Positions 1,406 through 32,467 of a stretch of 64,000 nt of DNA are shown here, in pieces. The DNA lies in contig CACDFZ010000001.1 in the NCBI GenBank assembly GCA_902552185.1, forward strand, positions 118,784-182,783. The letters run 5' to 3'. Under the pieces are notes generated by a model, which saw only the letters and a program-made list of their open reading frames with translations, made no database searches and was not told where the DNA came from. A program made the position numbers and the translations under genes. Within the stretch, counting starts at the first letter, position 1, and every line of letters starts with the position of its first letter. Source of the stretch: an uncultured Pelagibacteraceae bacterium. Lineage in GTDB: Bacteria > Pseudomonadota > Alphaproteobacteria > Pelagibacterales > Pelagibacteraceae.

Positions 1406-2398
1406 TTATAAAAATTTTTTTGTTAATTGTTCAAGTAAATTTATGTGATCCTCGCTATCATTTAAACAAGGAACTACATCAAAATTGTTTCCCCCAGAAT
1501 TAATAAAGCTTTCTTTGCCTTGAATAGATATTTCTTCAAGAGTTTCAACGCAGTCTGAGGAGAAGCCGGGGCAGATTACAATTATATTTTTTTTACCTTC
1601 TTTTGGTAAGTTTTCTAAAGTAACATCAGTGTAAGGCTTCAACCAAGCTTCAGGACCAAATCTTGACTGAAATGTAGTTCTAATCTCAACAGTTTTAAAT
1701 GTTTCCGAAAGTAATCTAGATGTTTTATGGCAATAACAATGATAAGGATCGCCTTTGTCAAAATATTTTTGAGGAATGCCGTGATATGAGGCTAGAATTA
1801 AATCAGGTTTCCATTTTAACTCTGAGATTTTAATTTTTAAACTATTTGAGAGCGCCTGAATATATAGAGGCTCCGATTCGTAGTGTGGTATTATTTGTAG
1901 ACTAGGTTGCCATCTCATTTCCATCAAAACTCTATAGACTTCATCACACACTGTTGCTGTTGTTGCGGCGGCATATTGCGGGTAAAGAGGTAAAACTATA
2001 AGTTTTTCACAACCAGCTTCATGTAGTTTGAGTATTTTGCTCTCTATGCTTGGATTCCCATATCTCATGGCATAATCAACTATGACTTCTTTGCTACCAA
2101 TCCTGTCCAATAGTTTTTTTGTTTGCATTATAGTGAAATATCTTAATGGTGACATGTCTTCTTTTTTCATCCATATCTCTTTATAAGCTTTGGCGGTTTT
2201 AGATGGCCGTAAGTTTAAAATAAACAGATTAAGAATAATTTTCCATAAAAATGGGTTCACCTCTATTACTCTTCTATCAGACAAAAATTCTTTTAAATAT
2301 TTTCTTATGTCTAGCCATTTAGTGGAGTCCGGTGTTCCGAGATTTACAAGTAGTACGCCCGTTTTACCAAAGTTTATTTTTGGGTGATCATTGCTCAT
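1406..2398 (-). CDS. hemH: Ferrochelatase
   Basis: A 330-aa protein that inserts ferrous iron into protoporphyrin IX. Visible signatures are the N-terminal VLLVNLGTPDS, the catalytic-His segment LASYHGIPQKYFDKGDPY (about residue 205) followed by CYCHKT, and the C-terminal metal-site segment CPGFSSDCVETLEEI. It overlaps the hemE stop by 4 bp and abuts hemJ, forming a haem operon hemE-hemH-hemJ. The start ATG overlapping hemE is the natural choice. The Cys residues in CYCHK recall Fe-S-bearing ferrochelatases, but I would not claim a cluster. Confidence 0.96.
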   Translation of the reverse strand: MSNDHPKINFGKTGVLLVNLGTPDSTKWLDIRKYLKEFLSDRRVIEVNPFLWKIILNLFILNLRPSKTAKAYKEIWMKKEDMSPLRYFTIMQTKKLLDRIGSKEVIVDYAMRYGNPSIESKILKLHEAGCEKLIVLPLYPQYAAATTATVCDEVYRVLMEMRWQPSLQIIPHYESEPLYIQALSNSLKIKISELKWKPDLILASYHGIPQKYFDKGDPYHCYCHKTSRLLSETFKTVEIRTTFQSRFGPEAWLKPYTDVTLENLPKEGKKNIIVICPGFSSDCVETLEEISIQGKESFINSGGNNFDVVPCLNDSEDHINLLEQLTKKFL

Positions 2399-3405
2399 CT
2401 TTTTATTATATTCACTCTATCTACTATTTTTTTTATTATACTTGGGTTTGTCTCTGGCAGAATACCATGTCCAAGATTAAATATGTAGGGGTTATTCTTA
2501 AATACCTCTAAATATTTTTCCATTTCTTCCAATGCTATTTTTTCATCTTCAAGAAGAATGTTGGGATTCATACCTCCCTGTATGCAAGTATTCCCAAAGT
2601 TATTTTTTGCCCATGAAGGATCTATGTCATGATCAATGTTTATTGCATCTGGTTTTACTTCTTCTAAGAATTTTTTATAATTTTCTTTTAAACCTTTGGG
2701 AAAACAAATTGATGGTATTTTATTTTCTTTACAAAAATCAACTAGACTTTTGTTGGGTTTATAACAATATTCATTTAAATCTTCATCTTCGATGAGACCA
2801 GCCCAAGAATCAAATATTTGTATTATATCTGCACCAGCTTGTTTCTGATTAATAATGTGGATTTTCAAGAACTCATCTAGTTTTTTTAAGACCGATTTTA
2901 TTTCGTTTTTATCTTTTATTATTATCTTCTTATCTAATTTATTCTGTTCTTTAAAATTATATAAATAAATCAAAAGTGTCCAGGGAGCACCAACAAATGC
3001 AATTAATGATTTGTCTTTGTTTAAAATAGTTTTAGTTTTATTTATCGCTTTATAAATAGGCTGAAGAGTAGAGAGAAAATTTTTTTCTTTTGTGTCTAAA
3101 AATTTATTAATGTTTAATTTCGAATTTCTTGGACCATTTTTCTTACCAAATTCTATCGGTTGACCTAGAGCATAAGGTATTACTAATATATCTGAAAAAA
3201 TTATTGCGGCATCAAGATTAAATCTTTTCATTGGCTGTAATGTAATTTCTGAAGCCAAGTCGCTATTTAAACATAGTTTTAAAAAATTTGGATTTTGAGA
3301 TCTTAACTGTTTAAATTCAGGTAAATATCTACCAGCTTGTCTCATGAACCAGATAGGTACACAAGAAATATCTTTATTTATCAAACAATTTAACAATTTA
3401 CTCAT
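2395..3405 (-). CDS. hemE: Uroporphyrinogen decarboxylase
   Basis: A 336-aa enzyme that decarboxylates uroporphyrinogen III to coproporphyrinogen III. Signatures are PIWFMRQAGRYLPEF near residue 17 (substrate-binding Arg residues), the catalytic-Asp segment AAIIFSDILVIPYALG, and the C-terminal NLGHGILPET. It is the first gene of the leftward haem operon and overlaps hemH by 4 bp. Its start faces the 283-bp gap shared with ppsR. hemE next to the RP001-type gene (ppsR) is the arrangement reported at Caulobacter and Rickettsia replication origins. Confidence 0.97.
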   Translation of the reverse strand: MSKLLNCLINKDISCVPIWFMRQAGRYLPEFKQLRSQNPNFLKLCLNSDLASEITLQPMKRFNLDAAIIFSDILVIPYALGQPIEFGKKNGPRNSKLNINKFLDTKEKNFLSTLQPIYKAINKTKTILNKDKSLIAFVGAPWTLLIYLYNFKEQNKLDKKIIIKDKNEIKSVLKKLDEFLKIHIINQKQAGADIIQIFDSWAGLIEDEDLNEYCYKPNKSLVDFCKENKIPSICFPKGLKENYKKFLEEVKPDAINIDHDIDPSWAKNNFGNTCIQGGMNPNILLEDEKIALEEMEKYLEVFKNNPYIFNLGHGILPETNPSIIKKIVDRVNIIKR

Positions 3406-3688
3406 AAATTAAATAATATATTGATAAGTGTAGTTATTGTAATAGGTCATGTTAGTATCGGCTATATTTATTTATACCTAGTTTTAAACATTTTATACCC
3501 ACCAAGTAGTCTAAATTTACTGTAATTTGAATTATTGATAGAATTATACTCACAGTTTATAGTTTTGATGTATAAAATAATTCACATCGAATAAAATGTA
3601 TAAAATATGTTAATTAATGTGAGCAAATTTTTTTTACGAAAGACTTTAGAGCATAACATAAAGTTATACGATTATTACTAACAGGATT
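3406..3688. other. oriC: Probable chromosomal replication origin (hemE-ppsR intergenic)
   Basis: The longest gene-free stretch in the window, between divergent hemE and ppsR. Against the DnaA box TTATNCACA I see two one-mismatch sites, TTATACCCA (3493-3501) and TAATTCACA (3578-3586), and weaker two-mismatch sites ATACTCACA (3546-3554), TTATACCTA (3472-3480) and reverse-strand TGTGAGCAA (3619-3627). A 12-bp direct repeat ATGTATAAAATA occurs at 3568-3579 and 3596-3607, 28 bp apart. The very AT-rich 3' half could unwind. The assignment rests mainly on gene order known from other Alphaproteobacteria; the box matches alone are weak in such DNA. Promoters for both flanking genes must also lie here. 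Confidence 0.6.
3568..3607. repeat. 12-bp direct repeat pair in the putative origin
   Basis: ATGTATAAAATA at 3568-3579 and again at 3596-3607. The near-consensus DnaA box TAATTCACA lies between them, overlapping the end of the first copy. Repeats of this kind can be initiator-binding iterons or part of an unwinding element, but chance is not excluded at this base composition. Confidence 0.5.
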
Positions 3689-4510
3689 ATGAACGAAAAA
3701 TACAATGTATATCTCATCTCAGACTCCACAGGGGAAACTTTGGATAGGATATTTTTATCTCTACAATCGCAATTTAAAAATTTCAAATATGAGAAAAAAG
3801 AGTTCTTCTTTGTCAGAACTGAACAACAAGTTGATAAAATTATAGAAGAAGGAACAAAGATAGAGAATCCAATTATTCTTTATACAATTGTAGAAACGAA
3901 ACTCGCCAAATATTTATCTAAAAAAAGTGAGCTGTCAAATATTCCGTGTTTTGGTGTTTTAGGAAGTTTAATTTTAGCTTTTTCAAAGCTCTTAAATCAA
4001 AAAGCAATTCATAAACCAAGCGCTCAACATGTTTTAGATGATGATTATTACAAAAGAATTGAGGCAATTCAATTTACAATGTCCCACGATGATGGAAAAA
4101 TCACAAAAGATTTATCGAAGGCAGATGTGATTTTATTGGGAGTCAGCAGAACGAGTAAAACGCCAACATCTATCTACTTAGCAAACAGAGGTTACAAAAC
4201 AACAAACATTCCCTTAGTACCAAATCAAGAAATACCTGAGGATTTGAAAAAAAAAGATTTTAAATCTTGTATAATTGGGCTGTATGCAGACCCAGATAGA
4301 TTGTTAGACATAAGACGTAACCGAGTAGCCTTAATGCAAGAAAATAGATCCTCTAATTATACGGATGTTGCCTCTATAAAGAAAGAAGTTGAAGATTCAA
4401 AAAATTTGTTTAAAAAACATAGTTGGCCAACCATCGATGTAACTAGAAAATCAGTAGAAGAAACTGCAGCCTCAATTATCAAAATAATTGAAATCAAAAG
4501 AAAAAAATGA
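3689..4510 (+). CDS. ppsR: Pyruvate,phosphate dikinase regulatory protein (DUF299 kinase/pyrophosphorylase)
   Basis: A 273-aa member of the DUF299 (RP001/YdiA) family, bifunctional Ser/Thr kinases and Pi-dependent pyrophosphorylases that switch PEP-forming dikinases off and on. It begins with the family's YLISDSTGETLDR and carries the P-loop-like GVSRTSKTPTSIYLA at about residue 148, then YADPDRLLDIRRNR. Length is normal. It is the first rightward gene after the putative origin and overlaps maf by 4 bp (ATGA). The target dikinase is not in this window, so PPDK versus PEP synthase as substrate cannot be decided. Confidence 0.9.
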   Translation: MNEKYNVYLISDSTGETLDRIFLSLQSQFKNFKYEKKEFFFVRTEQQVDKIIEEGTKIENPIILYTIVETKLAKYLSKKSELSNIPCFGVLGSLILAFSKLLNQKAIHKPSAQHVLDDDYYKRIEAIQFTMSHDDGKITKDLSKADVILLGVSRTSKTPTSIYLANRGYKTTNIPLVPNQEIPEDLKKKDFKSCIIGLYADPDRLLDIRRNRVALMQENRSSNYTDVASIKKEVEDSKNLFKKHSWPTIDVTRKSVEETAASIIKIIEIKRKK

Positions 4511-22035: not shown

Positions 22036-22652
22036 TAACCGAGTCCAATGTTAAAAGAATACTCCTTAAAGATTTAAATTTTGATGCGCCAAAGATAAAA
22101 AAATTAGATAATTTCGCAAAAAAACTCCTTATTTATAATAAAAAACACAATTTAATATCGAAAAATACCGAAAAGCAAATATGGGATAGGCATATCTTGG
22201 ATAGTGCACAATTAATTAAATTTATAGACGTTAAGAGTTGTTCAGGGATAGCTGATTTAGGTACTGGCGGCGGTTTTCCTGGTATTATTTTAGCTATATA
22301 TTTTCAAAATTTCAATTTTCACGTGAAACTATATGAAAAATCTCCGGTAAAATCGTCATTTTTGACTGATATTTCAAATATTTTAGGTTTGAACTGCAAA
22401 ATTATACGTAATGACATAAATACAGTAAAAATTGATTCCAATTACATAGTTTGTAGAGCTTTTCGAAAATTATCCTATATATTGAATATTTCACGTGAAA
22501 ACTGTGTAAAAAAGCACAAAATTATCATTTTGAAGGGAAGAAATGCACAAAAAGAGATAAATAGTACTTCCAAGATGAAAAATTATAAGTATAGATTAGA
22601 AAATAGTATTACGGATAATGATTCTAAAATAATTATACTTAATACGGAATAA
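22032..22652 (+). CDS. rsmG: 16S rRNA m7G527 methyltransferase RsmG (GidB)
   Basis: A 206-aa SAM methyltransferase. Signatures are [25 protein letters not shown], the SAM motif [19 protein letters not shown], and CRAFRKL. The start is TTG overlapping the mnmG stop; no in-frame ATG is near, and the N-terminus TESNVKRIL fits the family. The gene also carries two parS-like palindromes, so its DNA has a second role as a centromere. Confidence 0.93.
22315..22330. promoter_or_regulatory. parS: parS-like ParB binding site 1
   Basis: ATTTTCACGTGAAACT, carrying the palindromic core TTTCACGTGAAA (22317-22328) of the bacterial parS consensus TGTTTCACGTGAAACA; 13 of 16 positions match. It lies inside rsmG, about 330 bp before parA. 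Confidence 0.88.
22487..22502. promoter_or_regulatory. parS: parS-like ParB binding site 2
   Basis: TATTTCACGTGAAAAC with the same perfect 12-bp core TTTCACGTGAAA (22489-22500); 13 of 16 match the consensus. It is 172 bp from site 1 and also inside rsmG. The paired sites and the nearby parAB make chance very unlikely. Confidence 0.88.
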
Positions 22653-22657
22653 ATTTT

Positions 22658-23452
22658 GTGAAAACGAACATTATAGCTGTTATAAATCAAAAAGGCGGAG
22701 TGGGTAAAACGACCACAGTTATAAATTTAGCCGCATCACTGTCCATTATGGGTCAAAACAATCTCGTAATTGATTTAGACCCTCAAGGAAACGCAACGAC
22801 GGGTCTTGGCAAATCAAACAATGATGACGATAAAAATATTTACAATCTTCTTATTAACAAAATTAATTTAAAAGATGGATTACAAAAAACAGACATAACT
22901 AATCTTGATATATTTGGATCGAATGTGAATCTTTCAGGCTTAGAAGTGGAAACTGCCAATGATGAAAATAGAGCATTTATTTTAAAAGACATTCTGAATA
23001 AAAATTCTGAAATAATAAAAAAATATGATAATGTTTTTATTGATTGCCCACCTTCTTTAAGCTTATTAACCATTATGGCCTTGGTAAGTGCTAATGAAAT
23101 ACTTGTTCCCTTACAGACAGAATTTTTTGCATTGGAGGGGATTACACAATTAGTTAAAACAATAGATAGAATAAAAATAAAACTTAATCCTTCTTTAAGT
23201 GTAAGAGGAATATTATTAACAATGTTTGATAAAAGAAACAAATTATCATCACAAGTAGATAAAGAGGCAAGAAATTATTTTAAACAAAAAGTTTATCAGT
23301 CAGTAATACCTAGAAACGTAAGATTATCCGAAGCACCTTCACATGGACAACCTTGTGTAATTTATGACAAGTCGTGTAGTGGTAGTAAGGCATATTTGCA
23401 ATTAGCTGAAGAATTTCTTAATCAAAGAAAAAATATAGGGAGTGCTGCATGA
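22658..23452 (+). CDS. parA: Chromosome partitioning ATPase ParA
   Basis: A 264-aa Walker-type ATPase that moves ParB-parS complexes. The deviant Walker A is NQKGGVGKTTTVINLA with the signature first Lys, and the A' region is VFIDCPPSLSLLTI. It starts at GTG (22658) just after rsmG. The next gene is parB with a 4-bp overlap, and two parS sites precede it, giving a complete parABS locus. Confidence 0.96.
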   Translation: MKTNIIAVINQKGGVGKTTTVINLAASLSIMGQNNLVIDLDPQGNATTGLGKSNNDDDKNIYNLLINKINLKDGLQKTDITNLDIFGSNVNLSGLEVETANDENRAFILKDILNKNSEIIKKYDNVFIDCPPSLSLLTIMALVSANEILVPLQTEFFALEGITQLVKTIDRIKIKLNPSLSVRGILLTMFDKRNKLSSQVDKEARNYFKQKVYQSVIPRNVRLSEAPSHGQPCVIYDKSCSGSKAYLQLAEEFLNQRKNIGSAA

Positions 23453-24306
23453 AATCCAAAAAAAACAAAGGTTTGGGGAAGGGTTTATCAGCTCTTTTTG
23501 GCGACCAAAAAAACCCCTTAAATAAAGAAAAAAATGACAATAATATCCGAAAAGTGCTCATTGGCGAATTGGCGCGAAACAAATATCAACCAAGAACTAT
23601 TTTTGACGAAGAAAAATTGAAAGAGCTCTCTGAGTCTATTAAAAAAAATGGAATAATCCAACCTATTGCTGTTCGAAAAAATAATTCTTCTTCAGAACCA
23701 TATGAAATAGTTGCAGGTGAGAGAAGGTGGTTAGCTGCACAAAAAGCCGGCTTACACGATGTACCCATAACAATTTTAGATTTAAATGATAGTGAAACTT
23801 TGGAAGTCGCAATTGTTGAAAATATACAGAGGGAAGATTTAAATGTTGTTGAAGAAGCTAAAGGTTATAAAAGACTAAACGAGGAGTTTGGATATGATCA
23901 AGATAAAATTGCTAACATGATGTCTAAAAGCAGAAGTCACATAAGCAATACATTGAGATTGCTAAATTTACCCAAAGATATTATAGCAATGCTGGAGCAA
24001 GGAGAACTGACTGCTGGTCAAGCTCGTCCCTTAATTGGTATGCCCAATGCTTCCTCTATTGCTGAAGAGATAGTTGCAAAAAAACTTTCTGCAAGATCTA
24101 TTGAAAATATAAAAAAAATTAAATCAAAATCATTCACTATTGACCCAAATATCTTTGATGCACAAAGAGATATTGAAAGATCTATTGGCTTAAAAGTAAC
24201 AATTCAAAATAAAAAAAATAATTCCGGAAAACTAACTATTGAGTATAAAAATCTGGATCAATTAGAACTGATATCTAAATTACTTAAAAATAAGCCCAAG
24301 AATTAG
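23449..24306 (+). CDS. parB: Chromosome partitioning protein ParB
   Basis: A 285-aa CTP-dependent DNA clamp. The N-terminus GLGKGLSALFGD is the ParA-interacting segment. The CTP-binding and ParB boxes are EIVAGERRWLAAQKAG and IVENIQREDLNVVEEA, followed by the helix-turn-helix MMSKSRSHISNTLRLL and a C-terminal dimerisation region. It binds the parS sites in rsmG. The 3' end overlaps convergent holA by 23 bp. Confidence 0.96.
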   Translation: MKSKKNKGLGKGLSALFGDQKNPLNKEKNDNNIRKVLIGELARNKYQPRTIFDEEKLKELSESIKKNGIIQPIAVRKNNSSSEPYEIVAGERRWLAAQKAGLHDVPITILDLNDSETLEVAIVENIQREDLNVVEEAKGYKRLNEEFGYDQDKIANMMSKSRSHISNTLRLLNLPKDIIAMLEQGELTAGQARPLIGMPNASSIAEEIVAKKLSARSIENIKKIKSKSFTIDPNIFDAQRDIERSIGLKVTIQNKKNNSGKLTIEYKNLDQLELISKLLKNKPKN

Positions 24307-31351: not shown

Positions 31352-31839
31352 AGAATTTTTAAAAAAGTCTCTTTATTTATAATTGACAACAAGTATTTTA
31401 GATCTTTTTTTGATAATGCTATACAACCTAATGTAGGTTTATAATTCTTTTTTGCAACATGCAAAAATATAGCACTTCCTCTTTTTTTCTTTACAGGATT
31501 AATATTATAGTTAATAACAACGATTATATCGTACACATTTTCTTTGATATACAATCTCTCTGCGCCACCTTTAAAAGGAAATTTTATAAACTTATTATAT
31601 AACTTTGACCGTATATCATCACACCAGCCATAATTTTTTTTTATTGGAATAGTCTTTAGTTTGGAATGAATCTTTTTAACCCTTTCCTTTCTGTAAAAAA
31701 TATATTTTAGTTTAAATCTTCCTCTAGGGGTACATTTATCCCCTTCTACTTTCTTACTTATAATTCCTCTTTTACCAATAGTACATTTTGCTTTATAGTC
31801 TTTAAAATAGATAAATTTTTTTTTTAATATTATATCCAT
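31348..31839 (-). CDS. YkuD-type L,D-transpeptidase
   Basis: A 163-aa protein with the L,D-transpeptidase catalytic motif: AIFLHVAKKNYKPTLGCIALS (His...Gly-Cys), and the strand GKRGIISKKVEGDKCTPRGRFKL preceding it. No signal peptide is visible, so export or a cytoplasmic role is unclear; family members crosslink or edit peptidoglycan. Its ATG overlaps the start codon of the divergent regulator gene in CCATGG. Confidence 0.85.
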   Translation of the reverse strand: MDIILKKKFIYFKDYKAKCTIGKRGIISKKVEGDKCTPRGRFKLKYIFYRKERVKKIHSKLKTIPIKKNYGWCDDIRSKLYNKFIKFPFKGGAERLYIKENVYDIIVVINYNINPVKKKRGSAIFLHVAKKNYKPTLGCIALSKKDLKYLLSIINKETFLKIL

Positions 31840-32467
31840 GGTTTATAAAAAAAATATCATTTTAGCATTTGGAAATAAAGAATTTAATAATTCTTTGAAT
31901 GAAATCCAAGAATATTTAAGTTTTAATTTGGTAACTCTAGATAATTATAAAGATTACAATTCTTCAGAAAGTTATCAAGGTTTCATAATTCACGAAGATG
32001 CATTCAAAGACAAAAATTTTCAAAATTTAATTAAAAATCAAAATACAAACAAAATTGTTTTTCACAATTCAAAAAAGATTGAAGGTTTAGAAAACATTGA
32101 AAAATTAAATTTACCGGTATCTTTCGATCAAATTAACAAAATTGTAGTAAATAATATTGTAAAAAAAGAATTTAAAACGAATTCATCTTTAAAAATCAAT
32201 GATTATAAATTAAATAAAAATTTAAGACAGTTAATTAAAGATACTATTTTTTTAGATCTAACAGAGAAAGAAATAGAACTTATAGAGTTATTGAAAAAAA
32301 GATCATTTATTAAAAAAAAAGAAATTCTCTCAACTATATGGAGATATTCAGATGACGCAGACACGCATACTGTTGAAACACATATTTATAGATTAAGAAA
32401 AAAAGTTAAAGATGTTTTTAATGACGATTTATTTATAAAAAGTTCAAAAAAAGGATATACGATTTGA
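31838..32467 (+). CDS. OmpR/PhoB-type winged-helix regulator with degenerate receiver domain
   Basis: A 209-aa protein. Residues about 140-209 form a clear OmpR-type DNA-binding domain: LTEKEIELIELLKKRSFIKK, DTHTVETHIYRLRKKV and FIKSSKKGYTI. The N-terminal 125 residues follow the receiver beta-alpha pattern, but the phosphoacceptor strand reads GFIIHEDAF with His where Asp is expected, and the switch Lys of KPF is replaced (LPVSFDQI). It is therefore probably a phosphorylation-independent orphan regulator. No histidine kinase is nearby. Target genes unknown. Its last codon overlaps the TTG of the ArfA-like ORF. Confidence 0.8.
   Translation: MVYKKNIILAFGNKEFNNSLNEIQEYLSFNLVTLDNYKDYNSSESYQGFIIHEDAFKDKNFQNLIKNQNTNKIVFHNSKKIEGLENIEKLNLPVSFDQINKIVVNNIVKKEFKTNSSLKINDYKLNKNLRQLIKDTIFLDLTEKEIELIELLKKRSFIKKKEILSTIWRYSDDADTHTVETHIYRLRKKVKDVFNDDLFIKSSKKGYTI

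Follow-up and report, generated by a model that had tools for sequence, protein, structure and literature searches.

The hemE-ppsR intergenic region as putative chromosomal replication origin of a SAR11 bacterium

Where does the chromosome of a SAR11 bacterium begin to replicate? Few cells in the ocean are as numerous as those of SAR11 bacteria, and no mapped SAR11 origin was found in the literature searched; prediction databases may already list the locus described here, which limits its novelty. In Caulobacter an experimentally mapped origin is flanked by hemE and a COG1806 gene, and the predicted origin of Rickettsia prowazekii, 384 bp long, lies at hemE-RP001 (PMC1914354). The same landmark genes bound a gap in the window, as we call the whole stretch of 64,000 nucleotides that was analysed. 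The window covers positions 118784-182783 of the first contig (183 kb) of a draft assembly of 821 kb in 26 contigs that is 66% complete. Among named genomes it is closest to SAR11 (Pelagibacteraceae) assemblies from single cells and metagenomes. A preliminary description of the sequence had proposed the gap as a candidate oriC. The evidence assembled here supports that proposal: the hemE-ppsR gap is very probably the chromosomal replication origin of this bacterium, a reading based on the agreement of synteny, conserved clade-specific boxes, GC skew and gene orientation in a closed relative, inversion symmetry and the position of parS. The locus presumably behaves in the window's genome as it would in those of its relatives.

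The gap was described as 283 bp long and situated between hemE and ppsR, and both points proved exact. The two genes bound it divergently, and each matches its expected protein family.

3406 to 3688, no strand assigned: putative oriC, the hemE-ppsR intergenic region, 283 bp, 22% GC, conserved in length
2395 to 3405, minus strand: hemE, left boundary gene (TIGR01464, 318 bits against a cut-off of 303; Pfam URO-D)
3689 to 4510, plus strand: ppsR, the DUF299/RP001 homologue (COG1806), right boundary gene (Pfam PF03618, 304 bits, E 1e-90; NF003742, 315 bits against a cut-off of 225)
3395 to 3444, no strand assigned: weak candidate for an unwinding stretch, the least stable 50 bp near the gap (nearest-neighbour sum -49.9)

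This is indeed the longest gap within the window, but the claim that it is so by far was overstated. The next gaps reach 228 bp when open reading frames of at least 70 aa are counted and about 264 bp with longer reading frames, and two gaps on the contig outside the window, of 299 and 340 bp, exceed it. In composition the gap lies above the genome average, with an AT content of 78% against 65-75% in contig bins. Only 1.6% of same-size contig windows are predicted to be less stable as duplex than the gap, and 0.8% less stable than the stretch at 3395-3444. A scan of the gap against Rfam returned no RNA family. Within the genus, hemE (2395-3405) diverges much faster than ppsR (3689-4510), at about 56% versus about 76%. 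Neither a tRNA nor a tmRNA gene was found in the 64 kb of window positions 1-64000.

The arrangement is strongly conserved among relatives. Divergent hemE and ppsR separated by 255-286 bp were found at all 30 same-genus loci and at 78 of 80 further named relatives; the remaining two are contigs without a detectable hemE, and the gap could be measured at 108 genus-level loci. Closed genomes from three further genera of the family have the gene pair and its gap as well. Within about 115 kb, the hemE-ppsR gap is the longest intergenic region that is syntenically conserved. Its mean identity of 0.55 is ordinary among conserved intergenic regions, so its conservation rests on length and short motifs rather than on overall identity. 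One such motif is an element near the hemE end:

3437 to 3457, plus strand: left conserved element TTGTAATAGGTCATGTTAGTA, of which 3437-3453 is invariant in 13 relatives of the window's branch

Inside it lies a box-like site, ATACTAACA (3450-3458, minus strand), and TAGGTCATGTT occurs a single time on the 183-kb contig.

A conserved gap between divergent genes could also be a regulatory region and nothing else, holding the hemE and ppsR promoters together with regulator motifs, the origin being elsewhere. Divergent genes require two promoters, sigma-70-like matches in the gap number 7 where 3.5 are expected, and the unexceptional identity of the gap suits such a region. Set against this is what happens when a neighbour is lost. 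In two closed genomes of another genus, rho (recognised from its translation, without a family search) replaces hemE beside ppsR, yet the left element stays upstream of ppsR, as TAGGTCATGTT in one genome and TAGGGAATGTT in the other, along with four TTATNAACA boxes. Conversely, no ppsR can be detected in the other family of the order, where a hemE-maf gap of 268-281 bp persists. Because the region outlives the loss of either neighbour, it is unlikely to be a promoter region only. Its motifs, moreover, are DnaA-like and in the closed genome G069 are densest here, and both skew and inversion symmetry, discussed below, indicate the hemE/ppsR locus. We therefore regard a purely regulatory role as improbable.

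Several changes in these neighbouring genes were recorded along the way. The hemE of two closed genomes from a single genus shares just 28-29% identity with that of the window; it still adjoins hemH, but at a distance of hundreds of kb from ppsR. The hemH gene that follows hemE shares about 75% identity with the window's hemH in most genomes; in three it occupies the unchanged position with only 30% identity, a pattern that suggests in-place replacement of the ferrochelatase. In one closed genome hemE is spread over two reading frames, through either a frameshift or a sequencing error.

If the gap is an origin, it should be possible to recognise sites for DnaA within it. The preliminary description had reported two DnaA boxes with one mismatch each, and the outcome depends on the consensus chosen. 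Against TTATCCACA the gap contains no site with one mismatch or fewer. Against TTATNCACA, the consensus used for predicted alphaproteobacterial origins and known to vary between species, it contains three one-mismatch sites (3493, 3544 and 3578) and no exact match, a modest excess over the mean of 0.79 in shuffles of the gap (P = 0.04). The relatives point to a clade variant of the box, TTATNAACA, of which 30 gaps of the genus contain 65 copies (shuffles, 4.5) and 13 gaps from other genera 29 copies (shuffles, 1.6), a 14- to 18-fold enrichment at fixed distances from ppsR. By comparison, genus contigs totalling 1.25 Mb contain canonical TTATCCACA just twice. Across genera, a same-strand pair recurs at a spacing of 11 bp (at -208 and -197 in the closed genomes), and a terminal box recurs at -17 or -14. 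No other 300-bp window of G069 is as rich in TTATNNACA as the gap, which has 4 sites; the next has 3.

When a box matrix is built from other SAR11 genera, so that its use on the window is not circular, it finds 10 sites scoring at least 2 bits in the gap versus 4.0 in shuffles (P = 0.005). On the 183-kb contig, just 0.03% of windows of this size reach the box score of the gap, which is the best cluster that the matrix scan finds there. The predicted boxes are as follows:

3482 to 3490, plus strand: degenerate DnaA box TTTTAAACA, score 5.7, at -207 from the ppsR start (-208 in closed genomes)
3493 to 3501, plus strand: degenerate DnaA box TTATACCCA, score 6.2, at -196 (-197 or -198 in closed genomes)
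3544 to 3552, plus strand: degenerate DnaA box TTATACTCA, score 4.8, at this position in 69% of branch relatives
3578 to 3586, plus strand: degenerate DnaA box TAATTCACA, score 6.2, aligned to the genus column TTATTAACA
3608 to 3616, minus strand: degenerate DnaA box TAATTAACA, score 7.0, kept at -81 on the minus strand
3618 to 3626, minus strand: weak box TTGCTCACA, score 2.7, which is TTACTCACA in several close relatives
3675 to 3683, plus strand: terminal DnaA box TTACTAACA, score 8.4, which is TTATTAACA in most relatives

The box at 3493-3501 begins 11 bp after that at 3482-3490 on the same strand, TGTGAG at 3618-3623 is invariant in the window's branch, and at the terminal position the matrix has a match in 98% of the other genus-level loci (95 in number) and in 100% of 13 branch relatives. 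That said, the window gap, unlike those of most relatives, has no exact TTATNNACA box, which counts against the origin reading; the window's own boxes are unusually decayed. The altered boxes are not explained by an obvious change in the residues RDHTT of the DnaA DNA-binding domain, which the relatives keep as in the E. coli DnaA structure 1J1V and which are likewise unchanged in a member of the window's branch. The two residues before RDHTT are AN in the window's genus, SN in Pelagibacter-like genomes and GG in the other family.

A direct repeat of 12 bp was also said to flank one of the boxes. The repeat, ATGTATAAAATA, is exact and placed as described (3568-3579 and 3596-3607, on either side of the box at 3578-3586). 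Such a repeat arises in 3.5% of gap shuffles. Of 13 close relatives, counting the window, just 3 carry this one, and it is probably a chance occurrence. As an origin iteron it was rejected, since it is not conserved among close relatives.

On the scale of the chromosome, the preliminary description had named a skew minimum elsewhere, for example beside dnaA, as the result that would speak against an origin in the gap. The skew test was made in one closed genome, G069 (1,199,990 bp), which belongs to another genus and has the same hemE/ppsR gap. Its cumulative GC-skew minimum is displaced from the gap by 31 kb toward hemE, and its maximum falls 592 kb from the gap on the 1,200-kb circle, almost diametrically opposite. 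To within about 31 kb, the gap of G069 thus lies where an oriC is expected, at the minimum and opposite the maximum. A two-breakpoint model of gene orientation in the same genome puts the best origin at -25 to -30 kb, with the gap 0.6 lnL below the best and dnaA, at -63 kb, fitting worse at 4.3 below. In the window's genus the minimum lies at -16 to -18 kb in four of six contigs, including the window's own (-16 kb); the other two, which end short on the hemE side, have it at +42 kb. The displacement of the minima by 16-31 kb toward hemE, off the gap, counts against the origin reading, as does a third-codon-position strand skew that is weak and noisy near the locus. Local GC skew is dominated by gene direction and cannot decide the matter by itself.

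Genome rearrangement offers a separate line of evidence. Comparison of the genus contigs with G069 shows that the 16 kb from about -3 to +13 kb, which include the gap, form a core of unchanged orientation, flanked by a large symmetric inversion with its axis +5 kb from the gap in these two genera. Bacteria are known to favour inversions that are symmetric about the origin-terminus axis (PMC5850607), and the axis expected of an oriC passes 5 kb from the gap. A search for a dif site at the terminus (E. coli-like core, three mismatches allowed) gave one match, in the other family, and was uninformative.

These distances invite the idea that the origin sits inside the 16-kb conserved core, or somewhat toward hemE, but outside this gap. 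The inversion axis at +5 kb and the skew minima at -16 to -31 kb both lean that way, and in G069 there is a second cluster of three TTATNAACA within 300 bp, 15.2 kb away on the hemE side. That cluster, however, was not seen at the corresponding place in the genus contigs, whereas in the gap the boxes are densest and the conserved intergenic sequence is longest, at a known alphaproteobacterial landmark. An origin in the core or toward hemE, but away from the gap, accordingly seems very improbable.

Another location to consider is dnaA itself, about 71-74 kb off on the ppsR side in the genus, with hemE/ppsR merely near the true origin. Across 22 genomes dnaA lies 60-74 kb from the gap, so that coarse skew is ambiguous; it may be on either side and is always transcribed away from the gap. 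The window's genus, the genus that lost hemE here and the other family have it on the ppsR side; Pelagibacter-like genomes and one further genus have it on the hemE side. From the window's 66%-complete draft it is absent; relatives place it 71-74 kb downstream, and the contig ends at 60 kb. Against initiation beside dnaA stands the near absence of DnaA-like boxes from the 300 bp upstream of the gene: of 27 loci, four have a single TTATNNACA, two of these being TTATNAACA, and the others have none. The poorer fit of gene orientation in G069 argues the same way, and while dnaA changes side between genera, hemE/ppsR stays near the inversion axis. The chance that replication starts beside dnaA is very slight indeed.

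The hemE-ppsR gap as origin also agrees with the position of the partition genes, which had been reported about 19 kb away and were confirmed there:

22315 to 22330, no strand assigned: parS-like site 1, inside gidB, TTTCACGTGAAA core
22487 to 22502, no strand assigned: parS-like site 2, inside gidB, TTTCACGTGAAA core
22658 to 23452, plus strand: parA (Pfam AAA_31, 6.9e-57)
23449 to 24306, plus strand: parB (Pfam ParB_N, HTH_ParB)

The two parS cores of the window follow the ppsR start at distances of 18.6 and 18.8 kb, and the single core in the whole genome of G069 is at -8.2 kb from the gap.

The window gap contains no TTAA-N7-TTAA site for CtrA. Across the gaps of the genus this pattern is enriched (24 vs 7.5), and the enrichment was dismissed since a control with N6 spacing is equally enriched (24 vs 7.9). 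Four OmpR-family regulator types were scanned for CtrA with a model built on Rhodobacterales, and none scored above the cut-off; one of the four is PhoB, and GcrA is present. CtrA is thus likely absent. Since TTAA-N7-TTAA sites are missing from some predicted origins of the hemE/COG1806 type (PMC1914354), they were not treated as defining. One further candidate site was read from the sequence of the gap:

3414 to 3426, minus strand: weak candidate IHF-type site TATCAATATATTA, one match to WATCAAN4TTR

Shuffles give 0.07 such matches, and a looser pattern is not enriched. Elsewhere in the window, 31838-32467 encodes an OmpR-type DNA-binding protein whose N-terminal half has no receiver-domain match, and this regulator probably lacks phosphorylation.

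How does the locus compare with known origins? Like Cori of Caulobacter crescentus, it has divergent hemE and COG1806 genes around an AT-rich gap with several DnaA-box-like sites, a parS nearby and a dnaA that is not adjacent. Unlike Cori, which is about 400 bp long, the window gap has 283 bp, its boxes resemble TTATNAACA rather than TTATNCACA, and it has no CtrA site. With the predicted R. prowazekii origin it shares the boundary genes and a very AT-rich composition, a likeness of landmarks and composition, although the gap is shorter here. As in the predicted origins of Wolbachia and Ehrlichia (hemE-COG1253), the origin would have stayed by one landmark gene after the other neighbour changed; in Wolbachia it was ppsR that was displaced, whereas SAR11 has both losses, hemE in one genus and ppsR in another family. 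The kind of origin is ordinary; its assignment to the gap is probably correct, and it is new for this lineage.

These features suggest how initiation might proceed. The binding sites of DnaA would be several low-affinity boxes with an AT-shifted clade consensus, TTATNAACA, including the same-strand pair 11 bp apart near the hemE end and the near-universal box before ppsR. Bound DnaA may then oligomerise, assembling cooperatively on the weak boxes, and could open an adjacent AT-rich flank, where helicase would be loaded for two forks and replication would proceed bidirectionally. ParABS, 19 kb away, would segregate the new origins. A tentative extension, which we consider possible but less likely than not, is that in SAR11 origins generally TTATNAACA replaces TTATNCACA and CtrA control is missing, while in the window's branch the boxes are degenerate and initiation occurs by cooperative weak binding.

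A reliable oriC position is a requirement of growth-rate estimates from read depth at sea, and the gap is a small fragment on which DnaA binding of a minimal, streamlined genome may be tested directly.
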